A stretch of 38,133 nucleotides of DNA from Clostridiaceae bacterium (lineage in GTDB: Bacteria > Bacillota > Clostridia > Peptostreptococcales > T1SED10-28). The notes under the pieces were generated by a model, which was given only the letters and a program-made list of their open reading frames with translations, searched no databases and had not been told where the DNA came from. The DNA lies in the NCBI GenBank assembly GCA_003553525.1, contig PWEO01000086.1, forward strand, positions 1 to 38,133, read 5' to 3'. Shown piece after piece: positions 11,389-15,581 of this stretch. Numbering within the stretch: position 1 is the first letter of the stretch; each line of letters opens with the position of its first letter. A program made the translations under genes and the position numbers.

Positions 11389-11476
11389 ATAGTCTGGATA
11401 TCATTATGAATAGTTAATGTAATGAAGATAGAGGCAGTTTTGCAGTACAAATATATTATTTGAGGAGGAGATTATC

Positions 11477-12148
11477 ATTAAAATCGGAATTATCGGAGGA
11501 GGACAGGGTGGCAACGGCATCCTTAAATCCTTAATAAAAATGCAGTCCGTGGAGGTACAAGGGGTCGTGGATCTACGGGAGGACGCGGAGGCTATGGTTA
11601 CGGCAAAGGAGCACGGAATCTTTACCACCGCCGCCATGGAATCCCTGTTTGACAGAGAAATGGATCTTGTTATTGAGGTTACGGGAAATGAAAAGGTGGG
11701 ACAAAAACTTCGGGAACTGAACACTGAAAACATCGATATCATGTGCAGTAAAAGTGCAGCACTGATGATGAATTTGGTGGATCAGGGCGAGGAACTGAAT
11801 CAGAATCTGGAAGCCCATATTCAGGAGGTAAATCAGTTAAGCGACAACTTAGAGAACTTCATCGCCGAGACCGTGGGTAATATTCAAAAAACCGATGAGA
11901 TAGTGCGTTATATGAATAAAGTCACGAACCAGACCAATATTCTCGGATTGAACGCTTCCATTGAAGCAGCACGGGCGGGAGAGTCCGGTCGGGGTTTTGC
12001 CGTAGTTGCAAAGGAAGTTCAGAGTCTGGCTAACAACAGTGATACCCTGGCAGAAGAAATCAATAGCATTCTGGGAAAGATCAAAGAGGATGTGCAAAGC
12101 ACCCATGCCATGGTTCGGGATCTGAAAAAAGCCGCCCAAAAAGCGTAG
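11477..12148 (+). CDS. Rossmann domain fused to chemoreceptor signalling domain, ATT start
   Basis: This soluble 223-residue protein has two parts. Residues 1-~105 form a Rossmann fold with IGIIGGGQGGNG (G-x-G-x-x-G at 7-12) and an acidic residue at the end of strand 2 (VVDLRED, Asp32), which usually indicates NAD rather than NADP. It recalls the nucleotide-binding halves of dihydrodipicolinate reductase or homoserine dehydrogenase. Residues ~119-215 are a methyl-accepting chemotaxis signalling hairpin with tip NQTNILGLNASIEAARAGE followed by GRGFAVVAKEVQSLA, the CheA/CheW contact region. No membrane segment is visible. The first ATG (11540) would delete the glycine motif. The frame is open back to a stop at 11429 and offers no ATG, GTG or TTG, whereas ATT at 11477 sits 8 nt after GAGGAGG. 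A non-canonical ATT start is therefore inferred. No chemotaxis partner gene is in the window. Confidence 0.75.
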   Translation: MKIGIIGGGQGGNGILKSLIKMQSVEVQGVVDLREDAEAMVTAKEHGIFTTAAMESLFDREMDLVIEVTGNEKVGQKLRELNTENIDIMCSKSAALMMNLVDQGEELNQNLEAHIQEVNQLSDNLENFIAETVGNIQKTDEIVRYMNKVTNQTNILGLNASIEAARAGESGRGFAVVAKEVQSLANNSDTLAEEINSILGKIKEDVQSTHAMVRDLKKAAQKA

Positions 12149-12292: not shown

Positions 12293-12361
12293 GAAAAAAA
12301 GACATTAAAATAATTGTCAAAAAAAATCTGCACCGATAAAACAAGAAATGAGGTGTTTGCT

Positions 12362-14437
12362 ATGGGTCAAAAAACAGAGGGTTTCCCCAAAAAAGAAAGA
12401 CGAAGAGGTTATAAGGAATACCAACGAATTCTTTCCCTGTTTGACAACATCAGTGAGTTGATTTATGTCATCGATCCGAAAAATTATCGAATCATATATG
12501 CCAATAAAACCGTGGCGGATCTCTGGGGGGAAGAAATGGTGGGAAAAACCTGCTATGAAGCCATGCAGAACCTGAAGGCGCCCTGTGCGGTTTGTGAAAA
12601 CCCTTCGTTACTGCTGAATGAAGGGGAAGTCTATCGTTTTGAGACCTATTACGAGCAGTGGGATAAATACTATTTGAAGGAAGCGAAAATGATTGATTGG
12701 CCGGGGTACGATAAAGTACGGTTAGAGGTTGCCATAGATATTACCGAGGTAAAGATCAGCCAACGAATCTTAGAAGAGCGGATTCGTTATGAGACGGAGC
12801 TCTCCAATGTATCCCAACAGCTGTTAAAGGAAAATCATCAGGAGGCGATTCAAGGAGCTCTGATTCATTTGCAAAAAGCCTCCGGCGCCAGTCGAGTCTA
12901 CATTTTTGAAAATTTCGAGGAGTATGACTACAACACAAAAGCGCGGAAGTATTATACCAAATACGCCTATGAGGCTTGCGGAGAGGGAATTGAGCCCCAA
13001 ATTCACAATCCGGTATTAAAACGTTTTGACTATGAGCCGGACTTTCATCGGTGGAAAAAGCAGCTGTCTCAAGGTCTTTACATTGCAGGAGATGTGGAAA
13101 AATTTCCGGAATCGGAAATTGCAGTATTAAAAAACCAGGGAATTGAGTCATTGCTGGTTATCCCTATTTTTGTAGAAAAACAATGGTATGGCTTTTTAGG
13201 GTTTGACGAGGTGGAGAACAAGCGAACCTGGAACGAACAGGATATCAGAATCCTCAATACCGCATCGGATATGATCGGAAGTTATATAGAAAAGAAAAAA
13301 AGGGAAAGCGACATGAAAAACAGCCAAAAAAAACTTCGGGTTGCCATGAAAAACTCCCAGGAGGCCAATCGCCAAAAGAGCGCATTTATTGCCAATATGA
13401 GCCATGAGATTCGAACCCCCATGAATTCCATTATCGGCTTTGCGGAAATTTTAGAGAAGGAGACCCGGAATCCCAAACATCGGGAGTATATTCATTCCAT
13501 TAAACAGGGGGGAGAAAATCTGTTGACCCTGATGAATGATATTCTGGATTTATCTAAAATTGAAGCGGGAGTGGTAAAAATCGAGAGAAAGGAAATCTCT
13601 CTAAGAAATCTGGTGGCAGAAATTCGGGATATCTTTGAACTTCGGGCGAAGGAAAAAAACCTGAATCTTCAAATCGAGGTGGAAGAAAAGACGCCGGATC
13701 TCCTTTGGATCGATGAGACCAGGGTTCGCCAAATATTATTAAACCTTGTGGGCAATGCGGTTAAATTCACGGATAAGGGATTTGTGAAAATCAGAACCAC
13801 TTTCGAGAAAAAAGATCAGCGTCACGGAACCTTAAAGATCGAGGTGGTCGATACGGGGAAAGGAATATCCAAGCGGGGACAAAACGAAATATTCAAGCCC
13901 TTTGTACAGTGGAATCCCAAGGGAGACACTTCTCAGGGGACGGGTCTCGGGCTGTCCATAACGAAAAACCTTGTGGAAATCCTGGAGGGAGAGATTCATC
14001 TTTTTTCCGTCCCGAAAAGAGGCACAAGGTTTGAGCTGATATTCTATCCCGTAAAAATCGGAGGAAAAAATCTTTCTATAAAAAGTGCAAAAAATGAAGG
14101 AGATTTGCCGGGAAATGTAGAACCTAATAACTATAGAATCAAGGGTGATAGAGAAGCGGTGTTGGGATTTATTGAAAATCGGGGAAAATGGGATTACCGA
14201 AGGGTTCGAAACAGTGCTTTCTTCCAGGATATCCAAGACTTTGGAAAGAAGCTGTTAGATCTTGGAGAAGAACAGCAAGTACCGGCCTTAGTGGAATATG
14301 CAAGCAAACTGATTGATAGTACGGAACGATTTGATATTGAAGGGATGAAACATCTGCTGGTTTACTACCCAAATCTTATTCAGCGGATAAAGGAGATTAA
14401 CTATGAAGGAAAAAAAGGGGAAAATACTGATTGTTGA
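12362..14437 (+). CDS. PAS-GAF sensor histidine kinase with C-terminal HPt-like tail
   Basis: A soluble sensor kinase of 691 aa. Domains in order: PAS (about 20-130), with three cysteines at 64, 75 and 78 (CYEAM...PCAVC); GAF (about 150-310); dimerisation/phosphoacceptor helix with His348 in NMSHEIRTPMNSIIGF; ATPase domain with NLVGNAVKFTDKG (N box), VVDTGKGIS (G1) and GTGLGLSITKNLVEIL (G2). The last ~100 residues form a helical tail similar to HPt-type modules, but without a phosphorylatable His motif. The ATG at 12362 was chosen because GAGGTG precedes it; a TTG at 12314 has no ribosome site. No membrane segments are visible, so it senses inside the cell. The final 35 bp overlap the receiver-kinase gene. 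Confidence 0.88.
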   Translation: MGQKTEGFPKKERRRGYKEYQRILSLFDNISELIYVIDPKNYRIIYANKTVADLWGEEMVGKTCYEAMQNLKAPCAVCENPSLLLNEGEVYRFETYYEQWDKYYLKEAKMIDWPGYDKVRLEVAIDITEVKISQRILEERIRYETELSNVSQQLLKENHQEAIQGALIHLQKASGASRVYIFENFEEYDYNTKARKYYTKYAYEACGEGIEPQIHNPVLKRFDYEPDFHRWKKQLSQGLYIAGDVEKFPESEIAVLKNQGIESLLVIPIFVEKQWYGFLGFDEVENKRTWNEQDIRILNTASDMIGSYIEKKKRESDMKNSQKKLRVAMKNSQEANRQKSAFIANMSHEIRTPMNSIIGFAEILEKETRNPKHREYIHSIKQGGENLLTLMNDILDLSKIEAGVVKIERKEISLRNLVAEIRDIFELRAKEKNLNLQIEVEEKTPDLLWIDETRVRQILLNLVGNAVKFTDKGFVKIRTTFEKKDQRHGTLKIEVVDTGKGISKRGQNEIFKPFVQWNPKGDTSQGTGLGLSITKNLVEILEGEIHLFSVPKRGTRFELIFYPVKIGGKNLSIKSAKNEGDLPGNVEPNNYRIKGDREAVLGFIENRGKWDYRRVRNSAFFQDIQDFGKKLLDLGEEQQVPALVEYASKLIDSTERFDIEGMKHLLVYYPNLIQRIKEINYEGKKGENTDC

Positions 14438-15581
14438 TGATGTGGCACAAAACATTCAACTGATTGCCAACTTTTTAAAGGAGGATTATGAACTGGCCTT
14501 TGCCCTTCAGGGAAGAGAAGCGGTGAATCAGGCGCTGAAAACTCCTTTTGATTTGATTTTACTGGATGTTATGATGCCGGAGATTGACGGATTTAAGGTT
14601 TGTGAAATCCTAAAAGAGGAAGAGAAAACCAAAGAGGTTCCGGTGATTTTTTTGACTGCTAAAACCGACACCCAAAGCATCAAAAAGGGTTTTGAATGCG
14701 GCGGGGTGGATTACATTACCAAACCTTTCAATGCGGTGGAACTAAAGGCCCGGGTAAAAACCCATATCAGACTGAAATGGGCCATGGAGACCCTGGAAGA
14801 AAAAAATGACGCCCTGCAGCGAAGCAACCGGATCAAGGATAAGTTTTTTTCGATTATCGCCCATGACTTAAAAAGTCCCTTAAATACCTTTGTGAGCCTG
14901 ACCAGCCTTATGGAGGAGAATTATGAAGACTTCAGCGAAGAGGAGCGAAAGGATTTCTTACAGTCCATGTGTGAACACTCCAAACAGCTAAACAAACTAC
15001 TGAGTAATCTTCTTCAATGGTCTATGCATCAGCAGGGAGATCTGAAAGTACGCCCGGAGGAACTTTTTTTAGAATCGGTTATGGAGGAAAACTTAAAGCT
15101 TTATCAACAGGAAATTTGCCGAAAGAAGATCCGGCTGGAAATGGAAATGGAAGCGGGGCTGAAAACCTTAGGAGATCCCTCTATGATTCAAACGATTTTT
15201 CGAAATCTCCTATCCAATGCGGTGAAATTCACGCCGAATCGGGGGAAAATTGAAATACATGGAAGATTTCAGGAGGACAAGGTCCTGGTGGATATTGTAG
15301 ATACGGGGGTAGGCATTCAAAAAGAGCGAATTCCCCACCTGTTTAGCCTGGATCAGGTAACTTCCACTAAGGGTACGAATTATGAAGAAGGTACGGGACT
15401 GGGACTTGTTCTTTGTAAAGAATTTGTGAAATTCCATAAAGGGGAAATTGAAGTGGATAGTCGGCCGGAGGAAGGAACAAAAATCCGGGTGATCCTCCTT
15501 AAGAAACCGAAATTTTCAACAAAGGATCTGGCGGCGGATAAGGAGGAGAGGAAAAATGAAAATTTTACTGGCAGCTTTTGA
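14403..15581 (+). CDS. Receiver-histidine kinase hybrid
   Basis: This 392-residue protein has an N-terminal receiver domain (1-~125) with acidic pocket Asp12/Asp13, phospho-acceptor Asp55 in LILLDVMMPEIDGF, the conserved Thr in FLTAKTD, and Lys in YITKPFN. A linker helix leads to a kinase core with His154 in FFSIIAHDLKSPLNTF, the N box NLLSNAVKFTPNRG, DIVDTGVGI, and GTGLGLVLCKEFVKFHKG. Such receiver-first kinases commonly take phosphate from a partner kinase and then act on a further regulator. It overlaps the upstream kinase by 35 bp, and AAGGAG gives its own ribosome site, so the pair likely works in series. No DNA-binding regulator is nearby, so the output is unknown. The 3' end overlaps pcp by 26 bp. 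Confidence 0.9.
   Translation: MKEKKGKILIVDDVAQNIQLIANFLKEDYELAFALQGREAVNQALKTPFDLILLDVMMPEIDGFKVCEILKEEEKTKEVPVIFLTAKTDTQSIKKGFECGGVDYITKPFNAVELKARVKTHIRLKWAMETLEEKNDALQRSNRIKDKFFSIIAHDLKSPLNTFVSLTSLMEENYEDFSEEERKDFLQSMCEHSKQLNKLLSNLLQWSMHQQGDLKVRPEELFLESVMEENLKLYQQEICRKKIRLEMEMEAGLKTLGDPSMIQTIFRNLLSNAVKFTPNRGKIEIHGRFQEDKVLVDIVDTGVGIQKERIPHLFSLDQVTSTKGTNYEEGTGLGLVLCKEFVKFHKGEIEVDSRPEEGTKIRVILLKKPKFSTKDLAADKEERKNENFTGSF

Follow-up and report, generated by a model that had tools for sequence, protein, structure and literature searches.

What a chemoreceptor that begins with a Rossmann domain and lacks a membrane segment may sense, and whether such a fusion is real, are the questions raised by a gene of a Clostridiaceae bacterium (contig PWEO01000086.1; the whole stretch analyzed, 38,133 nucleotides, is called the window hereinafter). 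A sequence-only reading suggested an ATT-initiated cytoplasmic receptor of unusual domain order, reporting the state of NAD(H) or a related nucleotide to the chemotaxis array. The features of the gene are collected in Table 1.

Table 1. Features of the receptor gene and its upstream region (positions in the window)
Feature	Position	Strand	Basis
Shine–Dalgarno AGGAGG, 8 nt before ATT 11477	11463..11468	+	sequence; kept in congener L012
Tandem ATT ATC ATT, non-canonical start region; ATT 11477-11479 best placed	11471..11479	+	upstream codons, alignment
Cytoplasmic chemoreceptor gene, 223 aa: Rossmann sensor domain + short MCP hairpin	11477..12148	+	Pfam, AlphaFold2, homologues
Rossmann domain, residues 1-104	11477..11788	+	AlphaFold2, structure matches, profile matches
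Glycine loop GGGQGG, residues 7-12	11495..11512	+	conservation in homologues
Asp32, end of strand 2; contact with NAD adenosine ribose expected	11570..11572	+	conservation
Thr69-Gly70, cofactor-site loop after strand 4	11681..11686	+	conservation
Last Rossmann helix (from Ser91), unbroken into descending signalling helix, residues 91-150	11747..11926	+	model
Codons 120/121, place of 21-residue (three-heptad) loss vs relatives	11834..11839	+	alignment, arm lengths
Receptor tip NQTNILGLNASIEAARAGE, residues 151-169, CheA/CheW contact region	11927..11983	+	Pfam MCPsignal, structure matches
Ascending signalling helix, residues 170-223; ~21 residues shorter than relatives'	11984..12145	+	alignment

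Domain Organization and Predicted Fold

The elements named in the sequence-only reading were all found in the sequence and the model: the GGGQGG loop, Asp32, the tip NQTNILGLNASIEAARAGE, and a single frame of 223 amino acids, closed by TAG at 12146–12148. Neither the sequence nor the AlphaFold2 model contains a membrane segment, which places the protein among the cytoplasmic (soluble) chemoreceptors. The model (pLDDT 84.8) features an intact Rossmann fold at residues 1–90, with strands at residues 2–6, 26–31, 64–67, and 87–89, followed by a long helical part; the chemoreceptor hairpin occupies residues 105–223. From residue 91, within the cofactor-site loop (Ser91/Ala94), a single unbroken helix extends into the hairpin. 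The pLDDT is lowest (66–67) at residues 81–100, i.e., at the junction of the Rossmann domain with this helix, and the pTM of 0.46 makes the domain arrangement uncertain.

The fusion is not a matter of chance, as both parts match known folds. Thus, residues 1–104 superpose on the NAD domains of Gfo/Idh/MocA proteins, acetaldehyde dehydrogenase, and inositol dehydrogenase (1.8–2.5 Å over about 92–100 residues), and residues 103–223 on the hairpins of Tsr, Tm14, and YfmS (1.1–1.9 Å). The tip region matches the Tsr core unit (6s1k/8c5v) and the YfmS–CheW model 9a72; together with the Pfam MCPsignal match (93.3 bits, E 2e-26, over the cut-off of 34.6), this supports a soluble receptor whose tip is of a good CheA/CheW type.

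By both fold and profile, the N-terminal part is closest to NAD-dependent enzymes, i.e., acylating acetaldehyde dehydrogenase (4lrs/1nvm), aspartate dehydrogenase, and the Gfo/Idh/MocA family, several matched structures of which were solved with NAD; the nearest folds were aligned at Z 10–12 and 1.8–2.5 Å over 82–102 residues. In the profile comparison, acylating acetaldehyde dehydrogenase was matched by 21/21 members and came top in the PDB, aspartate dehydrogenase was also near, and CoA_binding was touched by some members. In Pfam, the receptor scored 21.8 bits with NAD_binding_3 and 21.6 bits with GFO_IDH_MocA, both under the 24-bit cut-offs; the latter cut-off is exceeded in some relatives, e.g., in Alkaliphilus (26.2 bits). 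Since these scores lie just under the cut-offs, the assignment of the domain to one enzyme family is insecure, and for the same reason proteins of this kind show up as MCP fragments with no sensor or as activators with PAS domains only.

Genomic Context and Distribution of the Family

The hairpin part is matched by nine further proteins of the same genome; the sensor domain occurs there once only, two other matches to its profile being weak (E 1e-4 and 6e-4). The CheW-domain proteins encoded in the genome are two of CheA-like size (708 and 695 aa) and three of CheW-like size (167–183 aa); two CheR are encoded as well. No che or redox gene adjoins the receptor gene, which stands by itself. It is directly followed by the gene of a PAS/GAF sensor histidine kinase (12314–14437, +) and that of a response-regulator/histidine-kinase protein (14403–15581, +), an order also seen in the congener (L128).

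In the relatives from the order, the gene lies near purH/purD, a metallophosphatase gene, and a 70-aa gene, often with an aspartokinase gene in the same shared synteny; no functional partner emerged from this synteny. Several genomes of the order harbor, near the receptor gene, runs of up to four small proteins with two SLLFFFLLLVIIFCNC repeats each (L129, 1444–2595 and 7020–7208; also L131 and L137). In one clade, a conserved protein of 66–79 aa bearing the motif NPQDIIDETYNxRDYxI...NSYVMPLDMVKD is encoded divergently beside the receptor gene (L129, 5439–5651; L130, 5408–5614; L133, 4436–4645).

The sensor part was matched in 37 of the 148 genomes of the order at E<=1e-3 and in 32 of them at 2.5e-8 or better. 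Accordingly, the domain order is not unusual, as had been thought: the combination of the Rossmann domain and the hairpin is common in Clostridia (at least 32/148 genomes of the order), and homologues across the order and the phylum rule out a one-off fusion. The typical homologues comprise 256–268 aa, all with the glycine loop; the named carriers include Tindallia sp., Alkaliphilus transvaalensis (two copies), and a Peptococcaceae genome. A wider search with the sensor-domain profile (A2), covering 398 genomes of a single phylum (Bacillota), found the domain in 110 genomes and in 85/267 genera at 1e-12.

Among 140 distinct sensor domains, 103 are attached to chemoreceptor hairpins (92 short, 7 long with an extra sensor region, and 4 mini), and about 27 to sigma54 activators (17 with one PAS domain, 9 with two, and one without PAS); 7 are labelled PAS-HTH, one belongs to an HD-GYP protein, and 2 are unclassed or cut. 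These counts are not frequencies, since the sample was picked partly by score and ORF length. In the domain tree, the output types are clustered (5 changes vs 33 in shuffles), with few well-supported forks, the number of columns being insufficient for inferring the order of events.

Some branches deviate from the typical architectures. The mini receptors (L186, L187, L188, and L196; 225–246 aa, one in Candidatus Frackibacter) possess the same Rossmann domain and a degenerate tip; judging from the latter, they are possibly no longer ordinary CheA/CheW partners. The Rossmann-PAS-HTH proteins of ca. 298 aa (L192, L193, and L266–L270) resemble sigma54 activators from which AAA+ has been lost and coexist in some genomes with full-length relatives. 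A Rossmann-PAS-GAF-PAS-HD-GYP protein of ca. 711–780 aa (L197) ties the same sensor to c-di-GMP turnover.

The Same Domain in BkdR and Other Sigma54 Activators

A search with the profile of the receptor domain retrieves BkdR, one of the two-PAS activators, from Metabacillus halosaccharovorans (4e-24), Peribacillus loiseleuriae (2e-25), and Vulcanibacillus modesticaldus (9e-26); at the level of sequence profiles, the N-terminal domain of BkdR is thus homologous to the Rossmann domain of the receptor. In the Bacillaceae, BkdR was identified by the adjoining bkd operon (ptb-bcd-buk-lpdV). As read by eye, bkdR of M. halosaccharovorans and P. loiseleuriae is followed by genes for leucine dehydrogenase and butyrate kinase and by lpdV, the locus of M. 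halosaccharovorans also containing a phosphate butyryltransferase gene; in the sampled Bacillaceae, bkdR lies near spo0A (gene names likewise read by eye). One protein labelled PAS-HTH (L229) is in fact a BkdR-type activator with a Walker motif.

In two BkdR-type activators, two PAS domains, Sigma54_activat, and HTH_8 score over their Pfam cut-offs, and the N-terminal domain yields only DapB_N at 20–22 bits, under the cut-off of 25.6. For B. thuringiensis, where the bkd promoter needs bkdR, a published survey gives BkdR only two PAS/PAC domains, a Rossmann domain not being listed (PMC4428206). The one-PAS activators adjoin methylmalonyl-CoA mutase-, fumarase-, succinate dehydrogenase/fumarate reductase-, succinyl-CoA synthetase-, and malic enzyme-like genes (by eye and by clustering). 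Overall, the neighbors of the activators represent the catabolism of acyl-CoA, propionate, fumarate/succinate, and branched-chain keto acids, i.e., pathways loading NADH and CoA thioesters.

These findings lead to the tentative suggestion, to which we assign slightly less than an even chance, that a family of Rossmann domains sensing NAD(H), so far without a name, forms the common front end of chemoreceptors, of sigma54 activators (BkdR among them), and of HD-GYP proteins throughout Bacillota. If so, one type of redox/metabolite signal would steer swimming, catabolic gene expression, and second messengers, and through this unannotated sensor, common among anaerobic Gram-positives, cells might adjust both their swimming and their gene expression to the metabolic state inside. 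A conserved pocket common to the receptors and BkdR, in a domain of about 105 residues, opens both the energy-taxis signals of these anaerobes and the ligand of BkdR, a textbook example of a sigma54 activator, to direct testing. The ligand of this pocket would be informative for a receptor family present in about a quarter of the sampled genomes of the phylum and for several catabolic regulators. A description of Rossmann/NAD chemoreceptors or of Rossmann sigma54 activators, BkdR included, was not found in the open-access literature, which is no proof of its absence.

The Cofactor Site and the Putative Ligand

The positions conserved most strictly in the domain are G7, G9, G11, G12, D32, T69, G70, and A94, all invariant or nearly so; they represent the glycine loop, the acidic residue closing strand 2, and the loop that follows strand 4, where NAD of the relatives sits. 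The four glycines are invariant in 21 domains and retained in 97–100% of the 92 short receptors. Asp32 is Asp in 99% of the latter and in 100% of the one-PAS sigma54 activators, and Thr69-Gly70 is found in 100% of the short receptors and 94–100% of the sigma54 activators. By fold and motif (GxGxxG, Asp at the end of strand 2), this is an NAD-type Rossmann domain with a nearly invariant cofactor site.

An Asp at the end of strand 2 favors NAD over NADP in Rossmann folds; at the same time, CoA, nucleotide sugars, and SAM are also among the possible ligands of such folds, and binding may be lacking altogether. With the pocket conserved, a helix path leading to the tip, and Che-type proteins encoded in the genome, we lean towards a cytoplasmic receptor whose Rossmann domain would bind a dinucleotide, most likely NAD(H), and report the redox or metabolic state to CheA/CheW. 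Two protomers would pair via the hairpin as in other receptors; binding of NAD+ or NADH, or a change in their ratio, would shift the helix starting at the pocket; and the shift would alter the activity of CheA at the tip, directing the swimming toward a better internal state (energy or metabolism taxis). In the model, the path from the pocket to the tip is direct, along a continuous helix without HAMP or PAS, though the pLDDT of the joint is only 66–67.

The strongest competing explanation, which we regard as unlikely but deserving attention, retains the same receptor and replaces NAD(H) with coenzyme A, acyl-CoA, or another adenine nucleotide. In acylating acetaldehyde dehydrogenases, one Rossmann domain serves both NAD and CoA, and it is this enzyme family that lies nearest by profile (in all members compared and at the top of the PDB matches); the contacts of some members with CoA_binding point in the same direction. 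So does the position of the activators beside ptb/bcd/buk/bkd, methylmalonyl-CoA mutase, or succinyl-CoA synthetase genes, as they control acyl-CoA pathways. However, Asp32 and the classical GxGxxG loop make up the NAD pattern, and the acetaldehyde dehydrogenases themselves carry Gly where Asp32 aligns.

Less probable still is the view of the domain as a structural or protein-interaction remnant which lost nucleotide binding and contacts a partner, e.g., a metabolic enzyme. It is in line with the absence of a catalytic domain after the Rossmann domain and with the partial loss of glycine-loop and Thr-Gly residues in the PAS-HTH and mini-receptor branches. Still, nothing in the domain of the 92 short receptors is conserved more strongly than the cofactor-site positions, and a mere scaffold would not need that.

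Translation Start and Integrity of the Gene

Between the upstream TAG and 11477, the frame reads TAG AGG CAG TTT TGC AGT ACA AAT ATA TTA TTT GAG GAG GAG ATT ATC ATT and contains no ATG, GTG, or TTG. In the congener (a second species of the genus, 82–83% identical), TAG GAG GAG ATT ATT ATC is found there, with the same AGGAGG, so AUU or AUC must be its start unless an internal ATG is used. Codons 2–21 of the two genes are under purifying selection (dN 0.03, dS 0.50), which speaks for their translation. In most homologues, ATG occupies the aligned start position; the nearest canonical starts of the other receptors are ATG (77), TTG (16), and GTG (5). Besides the congener, only a distant receptor gene (L153) looks non-canonical, with ATT ACG ATT after GGGGGAGGG, and could possibly represent a second such start in the family; two further rows of this appearance are artefacts (a cut end and an alignment offset). 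Hence, the ATT initiation proposed earlier holds insofar as the start is non-canonical; the exact triplet is narrowed to the tandem ATT/ATC/ATT, ATT 11477 being the best candidate by spacing and alignment. A start of the AUU/AUC kind points to a low level of expression.

The window protein and its congener also differ from their relatives in the hairpin: exactly 21 residues are missing from the descending arm (the tip Asn is residue 159, not 180), and the C-terminal arm is shorter by about the same number (65 residues from the tip Asn to the end vs 83–88). Judging from the alignment, three heptads have been lost from each arm, a symmetric shortening which keeps the hairpin pairing. A 3' truncation by frameshift was ruled out: the stop of the congener lies at the same codon, and conservation does not extend beyond it. 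Neither a strict nor a relaxed methylation consensus was found in the two receptors; the strict one occurs in 22/92 short relatives. Methylation sites are not required of every receptor, and known soluble receptors may lack them. As the hairpin is too short for the usual methylation region and contains no strict consensus, adaptation would come from elsewhere or be absent. The filing of the protein in the MCP superfamily rests on the tip and the hairpin, and "methyl-accepting" is not claimed.

The non-canonical start, a length about 42 residues below that of the relatives, and the lack of a match in three other genomes of the genus (98, 79, and 63% complete) could together signify a gene decaying in the genus, its ATG mutated, its hairpin shortened, and its product little expressed or non-functional. 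This appears quite improbable, however: the frame is intact in two species, with dN 0.076 and dS 0.90 (0.03 and 0.50 for codons 2–21), the perfect Shine–Dalgarno sequence is retained, and the symmetric two-arm loss preserves the hairpin. Translation from ATG 11540, the first canonical start codon of the frame, which would leave the glycine loop outside the protein, is hardly credible and was rejected, given the ATC that the congener has in place of ATT 11477, the purifying selection upstream of 11540, the Shine–Dalgarno sequence placed before ATT 11477 and absent before 11540, and the homologues, whose ATG/TTG starts lie at the glycine-loop end and none of which begins at that ATG without the loop.

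Comparison with Known Systems

In being membrane-free and in having a sensor domain followed by a short hairpin, the receptor resembles short soluble chemoreceptors such as YfmS of Bacillus subtilis, although its arms do not reach the length found in its own relatives. The hairpin superposes on the YfmS–CheW model 9a72 at 1.1 Å over 121 residues (residues 134–254 of 9a72). The likeness is limited to the hairpin, the Rossmann domain being unmatched there; identity with YfmS was ruled out, as the match covers only residues 103–223 of our model and the short soluble receptors of Clostridium and Paenibacillus retrieved by the genome scan have a different N-terminal domain. Tm14 of Thermotoga maritima (3g67, 3g6b), the best match to residues 110–223 (Z 12.9), is soluble and essentially a hairpin; unlike the receptor, it lacks the Rossmann sensor.

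Among enzymes, the N-terminal domain of acylating acetaldehyde dehydrogenases (DmpF, BphJ, and MhpF) is the closest by profile and fold; in the receptor, their catalytic domain is absent and Asp replaces Gly at the end of strand 2. In the way it may work, the receptor is comparable to the redox repressor Rex, whose Rossmann domain senses NADH/NAD+ in Gram-positive bacteria. However, the output of Rex is DNA binding and its Rossmann family is different, a weak Rex match being obtained in 3/21 members only. A counterpart with a different output is BkdR of the Bacillus bkd operon: it shares the N-terminal Rossmann domain with the receptor, but there the domain precedes a PAS-PAS-AAA+-HTH module, making the protein a transcription activator.
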